Of a stretch of DNA of 64,000 nucleotides, positions 6,638-55,186 are shown one piece after another; the first letter of the stretch is position 1; the number at the start of each line of letters is the position of its first letter. The notes below the pieces were generated by a model. That model saw only the letters and a list, made by a program, of their open reading frames with translations, ran no database searches and was not told where the DNA came from. The stretch is from Phycicoccus sp. M110.8 (GTDB taxonomy: Bacteria > Actinomycetota > Actinomycetes > Actinomycetales > Dermatophilaceae): positions 186,001 to 250,000 of the forward strand of contig NZ_JAWDIC010000003.1 in NCBI RefSeq assembly GCF_032464895.1, in the 5' to 3' direction. Made by a program: the position numbers and the translations under genes.

Positions 6638-7270
6638 ATGAGCGCACAGAAGCCCGCAAGCTGGGCGTATGCCGAGGAGTTCGTGACCGAGAACGAGGTC
6701 ATCGAGTCCGCCCGGCACCGCGGCGAGGAGCTGGGGGCGGTGCCCGTGGGCAACGGCGCCGGCGTCCTGCTGCGCCTGCTGGCGGCGGCGGTGCGTGCCC
6801 GGTCGGTCGTCGAGATCGGCACCGGGGGCGGCACGTCCGGGCTGTGGCTCCTGCAGGGGATGCCCGAGGACGGCATCCTCACGACCATCGACGTCGAGGC
6901 CGAGCACCAGGGCGCGGCCCGCAAGGCGTACGCCGAGGCCGGGATCGCCCACCAGCGCACCCGCGTCATCACCGGCCGGGCCCTTGACGTCCTGCCCCGC
7001 ATGACCGACGGCGCGTACGACATGGTGGTCGTGGACGCCGACAAGCGGGAGTACCCCGAGTACGTCGACCACGCCATCCGGCTGCTGCGCTCGGGCGGGG
7101 TGCTGGTCCTGGACAACATGCTCTGGCACGACAAGGTCGCCGACCCCGCCGCCCGCGACGCCGAGACCACCATCCTGCGCGACCTCGGCAAGCGGCTGCG
7201 CGATGACGAGCGCCTCGTCCCGGCCCTCCTGCCGGTCGGCGACGGCGTGCTCGCCGCCGTCAAGCGCTAG
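6638..7270 (+). CDS. SAM-dependent O-methyltransferase (Rv1220c-like)
   Basis: The 210-residue product is a class I methyltransferase of the catechol/caffeoyl-CoA O-methyltransferase type. The SAM loop [11 protein letters not shown] is at about residues 59-69, the acidic ribose-binding turn at TTIDVEAEH, and the metal/substrate region at VVVDADK and LDNMLW. The substrate is unknown. It is divergent from sigE across a 150-base intergenic region, the same arrangement as Rv1220c and sigE in M. tuberculosis (from memory), which hints at a stress-related role without proving it. Its TAG stop shares the palindrome CTAG (7267-7270) with the stop of the convergent gene. Confidence 0.88.
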
Positions 7271-7623
7271 GCGGTGCCGGGGCCGGGGCCGCGCCGGAAG
7301 CCCTCGGGTCCCTCGGCGATCGCCACGACCTCGAACGGCTCGACGAGCACCGGTGCCGACCCGATGATCTTGCTGCCGGCCGACTGGGCCGCCTCGGCGC
7401 TGAACTCCTTCTGGAAGTCGTCGCGGTAGACGGCCTGGTCGAAGACGTAGGTGCCCTCGAACCAGCTGCCCTCGACCATCCGCCACGTCTTGAACGCGAG
7501 CCCGTCGAGGAACATGAACTTCGCCATCGAGGTCCCGACGACGTAGTCGCGCAGCTTGCCCGCCACGTCGGCGGGGGCCTCCTCGAGGGACCAGCGGACG
7601 GTCAACCCGTACCCGGCGTTCAT
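7267..7623 (-). CDS. YdhR-like dimeric alpha/beta-barrel protein
   Basis: The 118-residue product has the pattern of YdhR/monooxygenase-like dimeric alpha/beta-barrel proteins: a beta strand (LTVRWSL), a helix, then GLAFKTWRM and [12 protein letters not shown] resembling the KxW and GGIYLF stretches of E. coli YdhR. No catalytic residue is assignable. It starts inside the pepA stop (ATGA, 7620-7623), so it is co-translated with the aminopeptidase. Its TAG stop overlaps that of the methyltransferase on the other strand. The family call is tentative; function unknown. Confidence 0.6.
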
Positions 7624-9137
7624 CGCATCTCCTCCAGCCAGTGCAGGAGCAGCCGGGCACCGAAGCCCGTGCCGCCCTTGGTGTGGAGCCCGCTGTCGAC
7701 GTCGGAGCGGCCGACCCCGGCGATGTCGAGGTGCGCCCAGCTCCGCGAGCCCGCGAACTCCCGGAGGAACAATGCTGCCGAGATCGAGCCGCCGCCGCCC
7801 CCGAGTCCCGCGATGTGGTTGATGTCGGCGACGTCGCTGTCGAGGGTGGGGCGGTAGTCCTCGACCAGCGGGAACGGCCACAGCAGCTCGCCGGTCGCCT
7901 CCCCCGCCCGGACGAGCGCCTCGCCGACGGCGTCGTCGGTGGCGTACACCGGGGCCATCGAGCGGCCCAGCGCGACGCGGGCGGCGCCGGTCAGGGTCGC
8001 GATGTCGAGCAGGACGTCGGGCTGCAGCTCGAGGTCGGCGTATGCCAGGGCGTCCGCCATCACGAGCCTCCCCTCGGCGTCGGTGTTGCCGATCTCGACC
8101 GTCCGGCCGCCGTAGTGGGTGATGACGTCGCCGGGCCGGTAGGACGCGGCGCCCACGGCGTTCTCCGCGAGCGCCAGCAGGCCGGTGACCCGCACGGGGA
8201 CGGCCAGGTCGCGGCAGGCGGCCAGCACGGACAGGACGATGCCGGCGCCGCTCATGTCGGTCTTCATCGCGAGCATGCCCTCGGCCGGCTTGATGTCGAG
8301 CCCGCCGGTGTCGAAGGTGATGCCCTTGCCCACGAGCACGACGTGCGGCGGCCGCGCGCCCGCCCCCTCCGGCGTCCAGTCGAGGCGGACCAGGCGCGGC
8401 GGGGTGGCCGAGGCGGCGCCGACGGCGAGCAGGCCGCCGAAGCCCTGCGCCCGCAGCTCGCGCTCGTTCCACACGGTCACGTCGAGGCCGTGGCGCCGGC
8501 CCAGCGTGCGCGCCTGGGCGGCGACCCAGGCCGGGTTCTTGGTGTTCGAGGGGACGACCGCCAGGTTGCGGGCGAGCATGGTCGCGGTGGCGCGTCGCAC
8601 CGACCGCCGGACGACGTCCCCGTCGTACGACCCCACGAGCGCGACGGCCTGCACGGGGGCCGGGCTGGCGCTGGTGCGCTCGCTCAGCCACCGCGGGCTG
8701 GTGTACCCGCCGAGGGCCAGGCCCTCGGCGAGGGCCGACTGCAGTGGCGCCGGCTCCCCGGCCCCCACCGTCGTGACGAGGGCGGCACGCCCCCGCACCG
8801 CGCGGCCGAGCGCCGCACCCGCCGCCCGGAGGTCGGCGACCGAGCCGGTCCCCATGCCGACGAGCAGCACCGTCCGGGCCGCCCGCTCCCCGGGCGGCAG
8901 CGGGACGGCGGTGACCGCGCCGGCGGTCGACGGTGGCTCCCACGTCGCCTGGACCACGGTGGCGTCCAGCCCGACCAGCTCGAGCGCCTCGGCCCCGGCC
9001 GGGCCGATGCCGTCCCCGCCCACGGCGACCGCCAGGGCCAGGTCGGCCGGGTCGTGGTCGGCGAGGACGTCCGCGAGGGGTCGGTGCTGGACCGACCAGT
9101 CGCTGGTGGAGGGGGTCAGGAGCTCGGGGTCTGGCAC
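7620..9137 (-). CDS. pepA: Leucyl aminopeptidase, M17 family
   Basis: The 505-residue product is a two-metal M17 cytosolic aminopeptidase that trims N-terminal residues from peptides. The C-terminal catalytic domain shows [15 protein letters not shown] (metal and active-site lysine loop) and [14 protein letters not shown] (metal-binding Asp/Glu and the catalytic Arg). The N-terminal domain (about 1-180) is the variable oligomerisation part. The GTG at 9137 is preferred over an upstream ATG (9155) because TAGGGT lies 7 bases before it. The 3' end overlaps the YdhR-like gene by 4 bases. In M17 enzymes the gene product is usually hexameric. Confidence 0.93.
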
Positions 9138-49862: not shown

Positions 49863-49871
49863 GGGGTCAGG

Positions 49872-49877
49872 AGTCTA
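49872..49877 (-). promoter_or_regulatory. -10 box of ychF
   Basis: TAGACT on the minus strand, 9 bases before GTG 49862. The 144-base region 49863-50006 otherwise contains only one GTATGCCG copy (49998-50005). Confidence 0.35.
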
Positions 49878-50006
49878 CCGGCGGCCGCCGCACGGCCCGA
49901 CCACGCGACGCCCTCCGCAGCGGCCGGACCGCCGTTGGGGGCGCAGACGTGACCGATGCGTCACCCCTGCACCCCCGAAGTGCCTGCGGGAGAGTCGGTA
50001 TGCCGC

Positions 50007-50870
50007 TCAGGCCGGCTTCGGGGACGTGGCGCGGGCGAGCTGGCGGGACAGTGCGACCAGGCGGCCCTCGCTGTCCCAGACCTCGGCGTCCTCCTCGAGG
50101 TAGCCGCCCGACATCGTGCGGCTCGTGAGGTTGACGCGCAGCCAGCCCGGGGCGGGACGCGCCCGCATGTGGGCCGTCAGCTCGAGCGTGGGCGTCCAGC
50201 CCGGCAGCCCCAGCTCGAACGCCACCGGCGGCAGCGCGTCGACAGCGAGCAGGAGCAGCAGCGGGTCGGGCTCGCGGCCGTCGGCCATGCGCAGCCAGCC
50301 GCGGATGACGCCGGTGCCCGACGGCCGCCCGACGGCCCAGCCCGTGGTGGCCGGGTCGAGCCGCAGGTCGAGGCGCTGCAGCAGCGACGCGTGCTTGAGG
50401 AAGTCCGGCGGCGCCTGTGCCGCGCTGACGCACTGCTCGGGCGGCGGCAGGACCGGCGGGGTGGCCGTCGTGCTGGCGTCCCCGTCGAGGCCGGCGAGGT
50501 CGCCGTACGTCGCGAGCACCCGCACCCGCTCGACGTCGGCGCCGTCCGGGCCGGGCTGCAGCAGCGAGGCCTGCGCGGTGGAGACGGCGCGGCCACGGCG
50601 GACGACCTCGGTGCGCACGGTGGCCGGTCCGGGCACGCCCGGCGTCAGGTAGTACGCGCTGATCGCGAGCGGGTCCTGGTGCGCGGCGCGCTCCTCGGTG
50701 GCCCCCAGCTCCTGCCCCAGCGCCCGACCGACCAGCGCCAGCAGCAGGCCACCGTTGACGCCGCCGCCGATGCGCCAGCCCTCGCCGAGCTCCGCGTCCC
50801 AGGTGCCCGGCTCCCCGGGTCGGGCCGCGACCGCCGTCCCCGTGTCGAACTCGCTGGTCAGGCCGTCCAT
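50007..50870 (-). CDS. TesB-like acyl-CoA thioesterase family protein
   Basis: The 287-residue product has two hotdog domains in tandem: the first ends around residue 115 (YLTPGVPGPATVRTEVVRRG), the second includes LTAHMRARPAPGWLRVN and the terminal VWDSEGRLVALSRQLA. This arrangement is that of the thioesterase-like superfamily related to TesB. Substrate chain length is unknown. ATG 50870 has GGAGGACGG just upstream. It lies 71 bases downstream of the M50 metalloprotease gene, probably an unrelated function. Confidence 0.83.
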   Translation of the reverse strand: MDGLTSEFDTGTAVAARPGEPGTWDAELGEGWRIGGGVNGGLLLALVGRALGQELGATEERAAHQDPLAISAYYLTPGVPGPATVRTEVVRRGRAVSTAQASLLQPGPDGADVERVRVLATYGDLAGLDGDASTTATPPVLPPPEQCVSAAQAPPDFLKHASLLQRLDLRLDPATTGWAVGRPSGTGVIRGWLRMADGREPDPLLLLLAVDALPPVAFELGLPGWTPTLELTAHMRARPAPGWLRVNLTSRTMSGGYLEEDAEVWDSEGRLVALSRQLARATSPKPA

Positions 50871-50941: not shown

Positions 50942-53425
50942 TCAGGGGGCGGGCGTGGCCGTGGCGTCCGCCACGTCGCCGGCGGCGCTCGCCTCGGGTG
51001 ACGACGTCGCGCTCGCGGTCGCGTCGGTGGACGCCGACGGGCTCGACGACGTGCTCGACGGGCTGGTCGAGCCGGACGGCGCGGGCGCCGTGCCGGTGTC
51101 GGTGCCGGAGGGCGTGGAGCTGGTGGAGGTGCCCGAGCCGCCGGAATCGGTGCTCGGGGTCGCACCGGTGGGGCCGGTCGTCGAGGAGACCGAGGGCGCG
51201 ACCGTGGTCGCGGTGGCCGAGGGGGTGCTGGCCGCGGACGGCTCGACCCACGCGGGGTCCTTGCGCAGGATCGCGAGGATCTGCTGCTCGTAGTCGTCGA
51301 GCCGGCTCTGCAGCTGGTCCAGCGGCACGTCGCGGATCGACTGGCCGAACTGCGCGATCTGCGCCCACAACGCCTCGAGCTCCGCCGTGCTCTGGGCACT
51401 CAGCGGTCCGGACAGGGTGACCACCAGCTGGGTCGCCAACGCCTGGGTGACGCAGCGGACGCAGTTGTAGTTGACCGCCGCGGCGATGTTCTGCGGCACG
51501 GCGACGTGGGCGTCACCCACGATGACGACCACCTGGAAGGCCACGCCGACGGCTTGGCAGTCGGTGCAGGAGGCGAGGGCGTAGCCCTCGTTGGTGTTGG
51601 TGACCGTGTCGCCGTCAGCCCACACCAGCGCGAACGCGACGTCGTAGAGCGAGGTGCCGTCGGTCGTGTTGACCGCCAGGGCCTGGGTGTCTCCCTCCCC
51701 CGGAGGCGCGGGCCGGTCGAACGGGAACACCCACGTCGGCAGCGCCGACCCGTCCGCAGCGGTCTGCCCCGGCTTGGGCACCATGACGACGGCGAGCTGG
51801 GGGGAGTCCGCCGTGGGCAGGCGCATGCCCTTGGGCAGGATCGCCCGTCCGGTCCCCTGCCGTCCCTCGGCGAGCGCGGTGGGCGCTCCGGAGCGTGCGA
51901 GCGTCGCGTTCGCCGCGTCCCCCAGCGTCCCCCGCTCGTATGCCTGGATCGGCCGGTACGTGCCCGGCTGGGGCCACCACGCCCACGCCAGCCCGGCGAC
52001 CACGGCGACCGCGGCCACCCCCGCCAGCCCGCGGCGTACCGGGTGGCCGTCCGTGCTGCGCCACGTGCCCACAGCCACGCGGCGGACCAGGCGCGACACG
52101 ATGAGCACGACACCCAGCACCGGGAGCGCGATCGCCACGATCGACAGCACCCGCACCAGGACCCCGAGGACGTCGCCGTCGCCGAGCTGGGCCTGCAGGC
52201 GCGCCCACTGGCGGGCGACCGAGGCCCAGGCCGTCCCGGCGACCCGGGGGAAGCTCAGGACCATCATCACCGTGGAGAAGGCCAGCATCGGCACGACCAC
52301 CAGGACCCACGTCGTCACGACCGCGCGGGCCCACGGCTTGAGGACCCTGGCCTCGGGGTGGTTCCAGTGCCGCGGGAGCAGGGAGAGCAGGGTCGGCTTG
52401 ATCCGGTGGTAGAGGTCGGGCACGCCGGTCACGTCCGCGAGCACGTGGTAGCCGTCGAAGCGCACCAGCGGGGCCAGCTGCCGCACCATCTGCAGCACCT
52501 GCGTGGCGATGATGAGCAGGATGGCGTCCCAGCCCGTCCCGAACCACACGGCGAACATGGCGACGGCCACGATCGCGTTGAAGTACAGCCCGCCGAGGTC
52601 GGTGCGCACGCGCCCGGCCCGGCCGAGGCGGTAGCTGTCGGTGACGTCGGTGTAGAACGCGGGCCACACGAGGTACAGGCCCGTCCCCATCGCCCCGGGC
52701 GTCGCGCCGCCGTAGCGCGCGGCCGCGGCATGGCCGAACTCGTGGAAGCCCGCGGACACGACGGTGAGCGCGAAGACGGCCAGGAGCAGGGCTGGCTGCT
52801 CGAACGCCTGGTGCGTCGCGGACGCCAGGCCCTTGTGCATCAGTACCCAGGCGCAGACGGCGAGGAAGGCGGCGACGAGCAGCACCACGACGACCGGGGC
52901 GAAGAGCAGGGCGAAGGGCGCCGTGATCCTGCGCGTGACCTCCGGGTCGGTGACGACGTAGCGGAAACGCAGTGCCAGCAACGGGTTCGAGCGCTTGAGC
53001 TGAGGGTCGGACCCGTCCGCCTTCCTCAGCAGGCCCAGCGTGCGGAGCTTGGCGTCGCACAGCGTCTCGACGTCCTCCGCCCGGACCTGGCGGCCGACCG
53101 CCGCACCCACGACCTCGGCCACCTGGGCGAACGTGCGCTCGCCGTCCACCGCCTCCAGCACGGCATACAGCAGCGGCGTGAGCTGGATCGTCTGGCCGTC
53201 ACCGCGGCGGACCAGCGCCGGCGACTCGCGGTAGCCGGAGCCGGGCACCGTCCCGAGCAGCTGCACGCCGTCGGCCCGCACGGGCACGCCGGGGTCGACC
53301 GGGGGCGCGGACGGGGGCACCGGAGCCGCCCCCGCGGCGGTCGGCGCGGAGGCCACCCCCGCGGCGATCGGCGCGGGGGCAGCCTCGGACCCGGTGGGGG
53401 CGCTGGGCCCCTCGAGGGGAGTCAC
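50942..53425 (-). CDS. M50-type membrane metalloprotease with PqqD-like domain and paired CxxC outer domain
   Basis: The 827-residue product has a Pro/Ala-rich lead (1-50), a PqqD-like winged-helix domain (about 55-135) as used to bind peptide leaders, then a membrane metalloprotease core: helices at about 168-195 and 209-227, zinc motif HEFGH (H228, E229, H232), and the third-ligand Asp in FDGYH (D324). More helices lie at about 280-316, 369-392, 420-446 and 465-484. An outer domain (about 490-720) holds CTDC (620-623) and CVRC (655-658) and ends in a helical rod, followed by a Ser/Thr-rich tail of 100 residues. It is 21 bases downstream of the repeat-protein gene, its likely substrate. Protease class is clear; biological role is inference. 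Confidence 0.8.
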   Translation of the reverse strand: MTPLEGPSAPTGSEAAPAPIAAGVASAPTAAGAAPVPPSAPPVDPGVPVRADGVQLLGTVPGSGYRESPALVRRGDGQTIQLTPLLYAVLEAVDGERTFAQVAEVVGAAVGRQVRAEDVETLCDAKLRTLGLLRKADGSDPQLKRSNPLLALRFRYVVTDPEVTRRITAPFALLFAPVVVVLLVAAFLAVCAWVLMHKGLASATHQAFEQPALLLAVFALTVVSAGFHEFGHAAAARYGGATPGAMGTGLYLVWPAFYTDVTDSYRLGRAGRVRTDLGGLYFNAIVAVAMFAVWFGTGWDAILLIIATQVLQMVRQLAPLVRFDGYHVLADVTGVPDLYHRIKPTLLSLLPRHWNHPEARVLKPWARAVVTTWVLVVVPMLAFSTVMMVLSFPRVAGTAWASVARQWARLQAQLGDGDVLGVLVRVLSIVAIALPVLGVVLIVSRLVRRVAVGTWRSTDGHPVRRGLAGVAAVAVVAGLAWAWWPQPGTYRPIQAYERGTLGDAANATLARSGAPTALAEGRQGTGRAILPKGMRLPTADSPQLAVVMVPKPGQTAADGSALPTWVFPFDRPAPPGEGDTQALAVNTTDGTSLYDVAFALVWADGDTVTNTNEGYALASCTDCQAVGVAFQVVVIVGDAHVAVPQNIAAAVNYNCVRCVTQALATQLVVTLSGPLSAQSTAELEALWAQIAQFGQSIRDVPLDQLQSRLDDYEQQILAILRKDPAWVEPSAASTPSATATTVAPSVSSTTGPTGATPSTDSGGSGTSTSSTPSGTDTGTAPAPSGSTSPSSTSSSPSASTDATASATSSPEASAAGDVADATATPAP

Positions 53426-53446
53426 GTCGGTGGGGTCCTCGCCCGG

Positions 53447-54151
53447 CTACTGCGAGATGTCCGAGGACTGGTCCGTGGTGGCGTTCGCGTCGGCGTCCAC
53501 GTGCTGGGTGATGGCGACGTCCTGCTGGGCCAGGGATGCTGCGTGCGAGTCGACCGACCCGATGTTGCCGGCGACGGAGGCGTCGATGGGCGCCGCCACG
53601 TTGGCGTTGGCCGCAACCGCACCGGTGATCGGTGCCGCGAGCTTGAGGTCGGTGGCGAGGTTGACGTCGACGTTGAGCAGCGGACCGTCCAGCGGCCCGG
53701 CGGCGTCCGTCGAGGTGGGCACCGTGCCGTCGGTCGGGAGCGTCCCGTCGGTGGGCGCGGTGCCGTCGGTGGTGCTGCCGTCCGTCGGCACGGTCGTGTC
53801 CGTGCCGTCGGCCGGCGCGGGGGCCGCGTCGGTCTGGTCGATCGTGGACCCCTGCTCGCCGTGGGCGACCGCCTCGCCGGTGATGCCCTGGTCGATGTGC
53901 GCACCCTGTGACGCCAGGGCCGTGGCGTCGGAGCCGACCGACAGGACGTTCGCACCGACGGCGGCCTCGATCGGGGCGGCGACGTTGGCGTTGGCCGCGA
54001 CGGCCAGGTCGATCGGCGCGGCTGCGTCGAGGCCCAGGTCGAGGTCGGCGTTGAGGTCGAGGAGGCTGATGACCTCCTTGTCGGGCAGCGCGGTGCCACC
54101 CTCGGCTGCGAGCTCCTCCGCGGTGAGCGGCGGCTGGGTCGAGTCAGTCAT
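53447..54151 (-). CDS. Duplicated Ala/Asn-rich repeat protein with double-glycine-like leader
   Basis: The 234-residue product has no signal peptide and no membrane helix. The N-terminus LTAEELAAEGG resembles double-glycine leaders of exported peptides (Gly-Gly at 18-19, Glu at -8). Two homologous repeats (about 33-92 and 159-218) share the identical core AVAANANVAAPI and end in QGAHIDQGI or QDVAITQHV. Between them is a linker of PTDG units (about 118-150). The composition is acidic with almost no aromatics and no Cys. ATG 54151 has GGAGTG upstream; a longer version from 54226 is unlikely. It immediately precedes the metalloprotease gene. I do not recognise a named family. Confidence 0.75.
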   Translation of the reverse strand: MTDSTQPPLTAEELAAEGGTALPDKEVISLLDLNADLDLGLDAAAPIDLAVAANANVAAPIEAAVGANVLSVGSDATALASQGAHIDQGITGEAVAHGEQGSTIDQTDAAPAPADGTDTTVPTDGSTTDGTAPTDGTLPTDGTVPTSTDAAGPLDGPLLNVDVNLATDLKLAAPITGAVAANANVAAPIDASVAGNIGSVDSHAASLAQQDVAITQHVDADANATTDQSSDISQ

Positions 54152-54203: not shown

Positions 54204-54268
54204 GTGCCGCCCGCATGACCTCGCACGCCGAACGACGCCCTGACCTGCGGCTTTGCCGTCGACCCGCC

Positions 54269-55186
54269 TCAGAGCGCGGGGAGCCCGTCCTCGAGGTACG
54301 CCGTGGGGCCGGTGTGCGTCGCGAGGAAGGCGAGCAGCCGCTGGTTGTAGGCCGCGACCCGCCCGTCCCACTCCTCCTCGTCCGCGAAGTGCAGGGCGCG
54401 GATCTCCCTGCGCTGCAGGGTCGCCCGGTCCTTGATGCCGTCGACGTCGTCGAGGCCCAGCTCGAAGACGAAGACGGTGGCATCGGTCCAGCCGCGCCAC
54501 GGCGGCAGCCAGTTGACGGCGAGCAGGCTGCGTACCTCCACCTCGAGGCCGAGCTCCTCGCGGACCTCGCGGACGACACAGTGCGCCGGCGACTCCGACG
54601 GGTCGACCACGCCACCGGGCAGGTCCCACTCGTCCTTGTAGGTCAGCTCGCACAACAGCACCCTGCCGTCGCGGTCGCGCAGCACCCCCTGGGCGATGGC
54701 GCGCTTGGTGGGCAGGGTGGCGTTGAGGATGCCGATGAAGCCCTCCTTCGAGTCCGGCGGCGGGTCCGTCGCGACCCTCGCCAGGACGACCACGTCGCCC
54801 CGGGCGTCGGCACCCACGCGCGCCGCCCGCGCGATGCCCTCACGTCGCATACCGGAGCGGATGGCGGCGCGCACCGAGTCGCGGTCGGCGTCGGGCACCC
54901 GCGCCTCGAGCCGGGCCAGCCCGAGCTCCTCCACCCCCCAGTCCAGCACCAGGCGCAGCGCCCGCTCGGTGATCCCGACCGCGCGGTACTCGGGCACCAC
55001 CACCCACAGCACGTCGGCATCCTGCTCGTCGACCAGGAGCTCGACGCGACCGACCTGCGCCCCCTCCCAGACGAGCTCGAACGCGTGGGTCCCCTCCTCG
55101 GACTCGGTGGGGTGCAGCGCGAGGTCCCCGTCGACGAGGGGCGCCGGTGCAGGCGGCGTGTGCGGGCCGGGGAGCGGTGTCGGCAT
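54269..55186 (-). CDS. GNAT-Nudix fusion protein
   Basis: The 305-residue product fuses an N-terminal GNAT acetyltransferase-like domain (about 15-150; LWVVVPEYRAVGITERALRLV, EARVPDADRDSVRAAI) to a C-terminal Nudix hydrolase (about 160-300). The Nudix box runs from GGVVDPSES to REVREELGL. The GNAT half has lost the typical RGxG pyrophosphate loop (reading YRAVGIT), so it may bind rather than acetylate. Substrates unknown. ATG 55186 is 6 bases from TAGCGT (55193-55198). Confidence 0.82.
   Translation of the reverse strand: MPTPLPGPHTPPAPAPLVDGDLALHPTESEEGTHAFELVWEGAQVGRVELLVDEQDADVLWVVVPEYRAVGITERALRLVLDWGVEELGLARLEARVPDADRDSVRAAIRSGMRREGIARAARVGADARGDVVVLARVATDPPPDSKEGFIGILNATLPTKRAIAQGVLRDRDGRVLLCELTYKDEWDLPGGVVDPSESPAHCVVREVREELGLEVEVRSLLAVNWLPPWRGWTDATVFVFELGLDDVDGIKDRATLQRREIRALHFADEEEWDGRVAAYNQRLLAFLATHTGPTAYLEDGLPAL

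Follow-up and report, generated by a model that had tools for sequence, protein, structure and literature searches.

A probable leader-guided intramembrane protease and its dedicated precursor, encoded as a two-gene unit in Phycicoccus and other actinobacteria

In the 64,000-nucleotide stretch of Phycicoccus sp. M110.8 analyzed here (contig NZ_JAWDIC010000003.1, positions 186,001 to 250,000; hereafter the window), two neighboring genes on the minus strand raise the question of whether a membrane protease and the smaller protein encoded just before it belong together and, if so, what one does to the other. The upstream gene (53447..54151) encodes a protein of 234 residues, here called the partner, and is followed after an intergenic gap of 21 bases by a gene for an 827-residue protease (50942..53425); both open reading frames (ORFs) were found as a first-pass annotation of the DNA had described them. 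We found that the two proteins form a real, dedicated pair, and that the unit is probably a leader-guided intramembrane protease with its own precursor. Its features suggest a branch, so far undescribed, of a peptide-maturation type that is already known; among the matches listed in the open-access literature, none was a publication describing the pair.

A search of a species-level collection with the protease core gave 529 confirmed matching stretches. The best 80, all actinobacterial (Phycicoccus, Pedococcus, Arthrobacter, Pseudarthrobacter, Sinomonas, Nocardioides, Blastococcus, Mycobacterium, Actinokineospora, Saccharothrix and others), were kept as class A loci. All 80 carry a match to the partner profile upstream of the protease on the same strand, ending 100–322 bases before the matched protease core, and a pairing repeated in 80/80 loci is not due to chance. 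The profile was seeded with 58 of these loci and the window; the 22 loci outside the seed match it without exception (worst E 4.6e-7). As for the neighborhood, our own gene calls in 19 hand-picked class A loci find the protease family 18 times, the partner 17 times and the next-commonest family 5 times, so that no third gene family recurs in more than 5 of the 19; in the same loci, no modifying enzyme or transporter family recurs.

In the window's family, a close protease is present in 15 of 186 genomes and the partner in the same 15. This set leaves aside weaker M50 matches (29–31%) in genomes G039, G086, G090, G103 and G150, and a sixteenth partner match (G110) is weak (E 4e-4), the fetched region having neither a protease nor a partner-like gene. 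In class-wide sampling, 95 of 394 genomes gave a match; those weaker than about 1e-100, along with 15 of the 34 stronger places past the first 30, were set aside. A second set of 56 loci (L050–L055 and L150–L199, where L150 is the window and L199 repeats L152) has a partner or leader peptide in 50 of the 54 loci with a script-placed protease; L185, L189 and L190 were added by inspection, in L194 and L197 the protease, located by the class-wide search, is preceded by motif peptides, and the L171 record stops at a contig edge. The claim of a dedicated, co-inherited pair thus stands, and protease homologs regularly lacking the partner gene, which the first-pass annotation had named as a refutation, did not appear among the loci examined.

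The partner (MTDSTQPPLTAEELAAEGG...) reads from an ATG at 54151 to 53447 and consists of a leader and two homologous modules. A longer reading from a GTG at 54226 is less likely, since three relatives (L070–L072) begin with MTDSxMPPL. The leader spans residues 9–27 (54071..54127, LTAEELAAEGGTALPDKEV) and ends in LPxKEV, a motif present in 77/77 class A loci with a readable leader (75 by script, two by eye). In the remaining three of the 80 (L075, L124 and L137) the best partner match spans only the later part of the protein, and the L075 record begins 225 bases before the match. These counts come from the scan of the 80 loci and not from our 41-row partner alignment (40 of 60 called partners plus the window), because the 60 called partners had been picked with a regular expression containing LPxKE. 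A double-glycine leader cut after Gly18-Gly19, as initially proposed, finds no support: the GG exists in the window sequence, but it is not conserved, being found in 13 of the 77 readable leaders and in 9 of 41 aligned partners.

The two modules are a duplication, as the first-pass annotation had recognized. Module 1 (residues 56–106, 53834..53986) and module 2 (residues 156–234, 53450..53686), a second copy without a leader, align by hhalign with Prob 99.85, E 7e-31 and 49% identity (column shuffles as high, 0/40), and are joined by a linker rich in Thr, Gly, Asp and Pro (residues 107–155, 53687..53833), modeled by AlphaFold2 (AF2) mostly with low confidence. Gln residues recur at 18-residue spacing in both modules; those at 82, 88, 100, 210, 216, 228 and 234 are invariant over the 41 rows, and Gln106 is nearly so. 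The AF2 model is weak overall (mean predicted local distance difference test score, pLDDT, 58), though two beta stretches are moderately confident: strands are predicted at 64–69 and 75–105 in module 1 (block pLDDT 69–76 over 71–110) and at 192–197 and 203–233 in module 2. Foldseek gave no match for this model. The partner has no Cys, no transmembrane-like segment by hydropathy and a Gln as its last residue; a Gasdermin match (E 0.0057), under the cut-off, was taken as chance.

Is the leader confined to this fused protein? More distant proteases adjoin one to three peptides of about 60–110 residues, and in six loci of the window's own family, proteases of about 40% identity adjoin two small peptides and no fused partner. 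We sorted these loci into further classes: class B has mostly three peptides, class C two peptides and a protease joined to an ATPase resembling MinD/ParA, while the others comprise a Streptomyces-like type (D), an Asn/Pro/Ser type (E), a Gly-rich type with Cys (F) and a Trp/Gly-rich type (G). The protease-ATPase fusion of class C is unusual; the C-terminal ATPase is recognized by profile in L050 (CbiA, 6.3e-11) and by eye in L051–L055, L160, L166 and L168. Two loci lie on Streptomyces plasmids (L218, type F; L219, type D), where the system is annotated only as hypothetical proteins.

Judged from their sequences, the fused partner and the distant peptides have one leader in common and differ in their cores, in line with the earlier view of a leader-plus-core precursor. 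The leader consensus is roughly L(S/T)xx(E/D)(L/I)xx(E/Q)xxxxLPx(R/K)E, although only (E/D)(L/I) and LPx(R/K) are kept in all seven class representatives. Their hand-cut leaders align without gaps at 47% mean identity, against 10% over 30 ungapped core positions, a figure that understates the likeness of related cores. Among 2125 short ORFs of the B–G set, 56 (one antisense) match a leader regular expression derived from the peptides themselves; around class A loci, none of 7266 does. As for the cores, the window's modules match the class B peptide core (E 5e-15), with Prob 98.4 for module 1 (residues 29–106 used) and 98.2 for module 2, and the window partner is therefore a fused pair of class B-type cores. 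Classes C and D are likewise close (Prob 96.5), B against C is looser (58.9), A against C reaches 33–51, and the E, F and G cores look distinct by eye only; the cores thus form about four groups, E–G being judged by eye.

The core classes follow the protease clades. When 85 protease cores are arranged in a tree, every class forms one group, and the eight labels (one of them the outgroup) need seven changes, which is the minimum, vs. 37.4 when shuffled. Support is lowest for class B (92/79); near-copies favor clustering, and the outgroup branches are long. A shared leader with class-bound cores is the pattern of a leader-recognizing protease with its own precursors.

The protease itself fits such a role. 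Its start codon is uncertain and the alignable block begins near residue 50. As modeled, residues 44–138 (53012..53296) fold as a winged helix of the RRE/PqqD-like, leader-binding type, with three strands and three helices (block-mean pLDDT 83–96). The PqqD-like domain of the first-pass annotation therefore stands as a predicted fold but not as a profile match, since neither the window protease nor L050, L180 or L199 matches Pfam PqqD at E 1 or better. Foldseek with the whole protease model found nothing at E 0.001 (best TbiB1, 0.79), and the structural matches of the RRE part were obtained in a separate second look afterwards; a PDB search by sequence gave no match. The site-2-protease (S2P)-like transmembrane core covers residues 151–381 (52283..52975), where HEFGH (residues 228–232, 52730..52744) and FDGYH (residues 323–327, 52445..52459) sit amid hydrophobic segments. 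The zinc motif HEFGH is present in 79/80 class A loci (65 by script, 14 by eye) and is invariant in a 37-row alignment (36 of 67 called proteases plus the window), as are D324, G325, Y326 and H327. The M50/S2P-type core proposed earlier is supported by its conserved motifs, while Pfam Peptidase_M50 stays below threshold (15.2 bits vs. a gathering cut-off of 27.2). The sole variant in 80 is HEFGR in L124 (Sinomonas susongensis, match 7001–8161), where the partner leader is also unreadable; this locus may be decayed or contain a sequence error.

Beyond the core, hydropathy and charge mark a last transmembrane helix (residues 466–484, 51974..52030), and the basic loop preceding it suggests that the C-terminus lies outside. 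What follows is a putative outer domain (residues 485–725, 51251..51973), homologous to a secreted CxxC protein that is encoded separately in classes B–D (hhalign against 13 of them: Prob 99.85, E 1.3e-30, 39% identity); a DUF7351 match of one such protein (2.7e-4), under the cut-off, was taken as chance. The domain has two CxxC motifs (C620/C623 and C655/C658, 51452..51568), whose four Cys are invariant in the 37 rows, and is followed by a low-complexity Ser/Thr/Pro tail (residues 731–827, 50945..51235, block pLDDT 30–34). Of the two CxxC repeats, the second is similar to the class C core (Prob 91.6, 0/40 shuffles as high; 48.9 with D, 10.1 with B), whereas the first gave nothing against the B, C and D cores. 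A substrate-like module on the window protease was rejected and kept merely as a lead, the window's own modules scoring 0.3–1.6 against the CxxC repeats (3 to 10 of 40 shuffles as high); at best, such a module may be a class C feature.

Next to the pair lies a gene fusing GNAT and NUDIX domains (54269–55186, minus strand), which is present in 11/11 genomes of the genus and marks the insertion site, being no part of the system. The pair is missing from the window's site in 4/4 congeners without it (4 of 11 genomes), where the GNAT-NUDIX gene and the gene of the opposite side are 48 to 156 bases apart by our own gene calls; in two further genomes of the genus the pair is located elsewhere. On the downstream side, the stretch 49867–50832 has no Pfam match.

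How new is the combination? The first-pass annotation knew of no described system of this kind, which was too strong: daptides combine an RRE fused to a site-2 protease (MpaP) with several adjoining short precursors that carry a conserved N-terminal leader motif (PMC10036551). The window protease matches NCBIfam daptide_HExxH (NF041824) over residues 67–352 (E 2e-28), but with 99.6 bits vs. a cut-off of 300. Daptide precursors have the leader ELExMEAP and a C-terminal Thr, whereas the window partner has ELAAEGGTALPDKEV, a leader running into LPx(R/K), and a C-terminal Gln; daptides also co-encode modifying enzymes and an ABC transporter, unlike the class A loci, where no third family occurs in more than 5 of 19. 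The system thus works like the daptide kind but is not a member of it by leader, C-terminal residue, neighbors or model cut-off. The window's family also includes genome G090, where a 519-residue M50-like gene is accompanied by two identical ORFs of 41 residues (MNENFELAMQELETLEAP...; L058, 5546–5903, minus strand), likely a daptide-type cluster by its ELETLEAP. In L057 (3877–4508, plus strand), larger genes are preceded by three short ORFs whose ends are rich in Ser, Ala and Cys, which suggests a modified-peptide cluster of a different kind.

Other known systems resemble the unit in part. EpeP/YydH is an M50 membrane protease that matures an epipeptide and, according to a review, is thought to perform both cleavage and export (PMC10885120). 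That dual role is the one proposed for the window protease, although the match to NF058609 (2.4e-10) reaches 40.5 bits vs. a cut-off of 225. Epipeptides need a radical-SAM epimerase, whereas no third family, and thus no epimerase family, recurs around class A. In turn, a preprint describes TmcP, a DUF3267 protein of the S2P clan, as cleaving off a leader at the membrane, and the TMcin precursor as a transmembrane helix with a disulfide, dependent on an ABC transporter together with an escort and a DsbA-like protein (PMC13252029). The proposed likeness lies in S2P-type removal of a leader at the membrane; the window partner differs in having neither Cys nor such a helix. The Ala/Asn/Gln-rich, predicted beta-type modules with their regular Gln also recall curli. 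Curli repeats have regularly spaced Gln as well, with a different spacing, and no Curlin repeats were matched in the partner by Pfam up to E 1.

From this material we infer cleavage, export and function as follows. The winged helix would bind the leader at the inner face of the membrane, and the M50 center would cut just past it, near LPDKEV-xSLLDLN, where conservation across classes stops. The beta-rich modules would be released outside the cell, which we propose because no transporter family recurs nearby, and would act there, together with the CxxC domain, as a beta-structured protein that is secreted or displayed at the surface. Of these steps, export and the final role have the least support, export in particular, as no neighbor family turns up repeatedly around class A and the partner lacks any transmembrane stretch. 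One protein doing both cutting and export is plausible by the precedent of EpeP, if unproven.

The common leader with varied cores, among them the short Trp/Gly-rich core of class G and the Cys-containing cores of class F, would also suit a true family of ribosomally synthesized and post-translationally modified peptides (RiPPs) or bacteriocins, in which enzymes encoded elsewhere modify the cores, the products are antimicrobial or signaling peptides and the M50 protease only removes the leader. Many loci have several paralogous precursors, and a BTAD-domain regulator adjoins the class C locus L052 (E 2.7e-20). Yet, third gene families near class A stay at 5/19 at most (neighbors of classes B–G were viewed by eye only), and class A partners are 54–76% identical to that of the window across families, unlike a fast-changing toxin, so we consider this origin unlikely. 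A bolder possibility keeps the proposed steps and extends them to a general route of cutting and display that needs no dedicated transporter. Here, a single membrane protein would select, cut and export its substrate and afterwards serve as anchor or template for a beta assembly outside the cell. The RRE would pick the leader, the M50 center would cut, and the outer CxxC domain would receive the released modules, working like a minor subunit that nucleates a fiber, as the resemblance of the class C CxxC domain to a substrate module may hint; one leader logic would serve several core types across Actinomycetes. We regard this as rather unlikely, and have lowered our estimate slightly because the window's modules are unlike the CxxC repeats.

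Site-2 proteases classically perform regulated intramembrane proteolysis, in which case the partner would be a signal or anti-factor, the protease a sensor gated by its outer domain and the output gene regulation. The two CxxC pairs of that domain and the MinD/ParA-type ATPase at the C-terminus of class C proteases would suit a sensor, but class A neighborhoods show no recurrent regulator, and the partner has neither a DNA-binding family match in Pfam nor a transmembrane-like segment, which makes this role quite improbable. Least probable is a chaperone without proteolysis, whose RRE and membrane core would bind and insert or export the partner uncut, as the HEFGR of L124, a locus maybe decayed or misread, would allow, given the intact HEFGH in the other 79 loci and the invariant D324-H327. 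We thus favor leader-guided proteolysis of a dedicated precursor.

If this is true, the unit would represent an undescribed leader-guided maturation route common to many Actinomycetes, as the 529 matching stretches imply. Genome mining by modifying enzymes or transporters would miss such a system, both lacking at least around class A, while the leader motif makes its precursors easy to find. With only two genes, the pair would also provide a test bed for whether one site-2 protease can both cut its substrate and deliver the product outside the cell.
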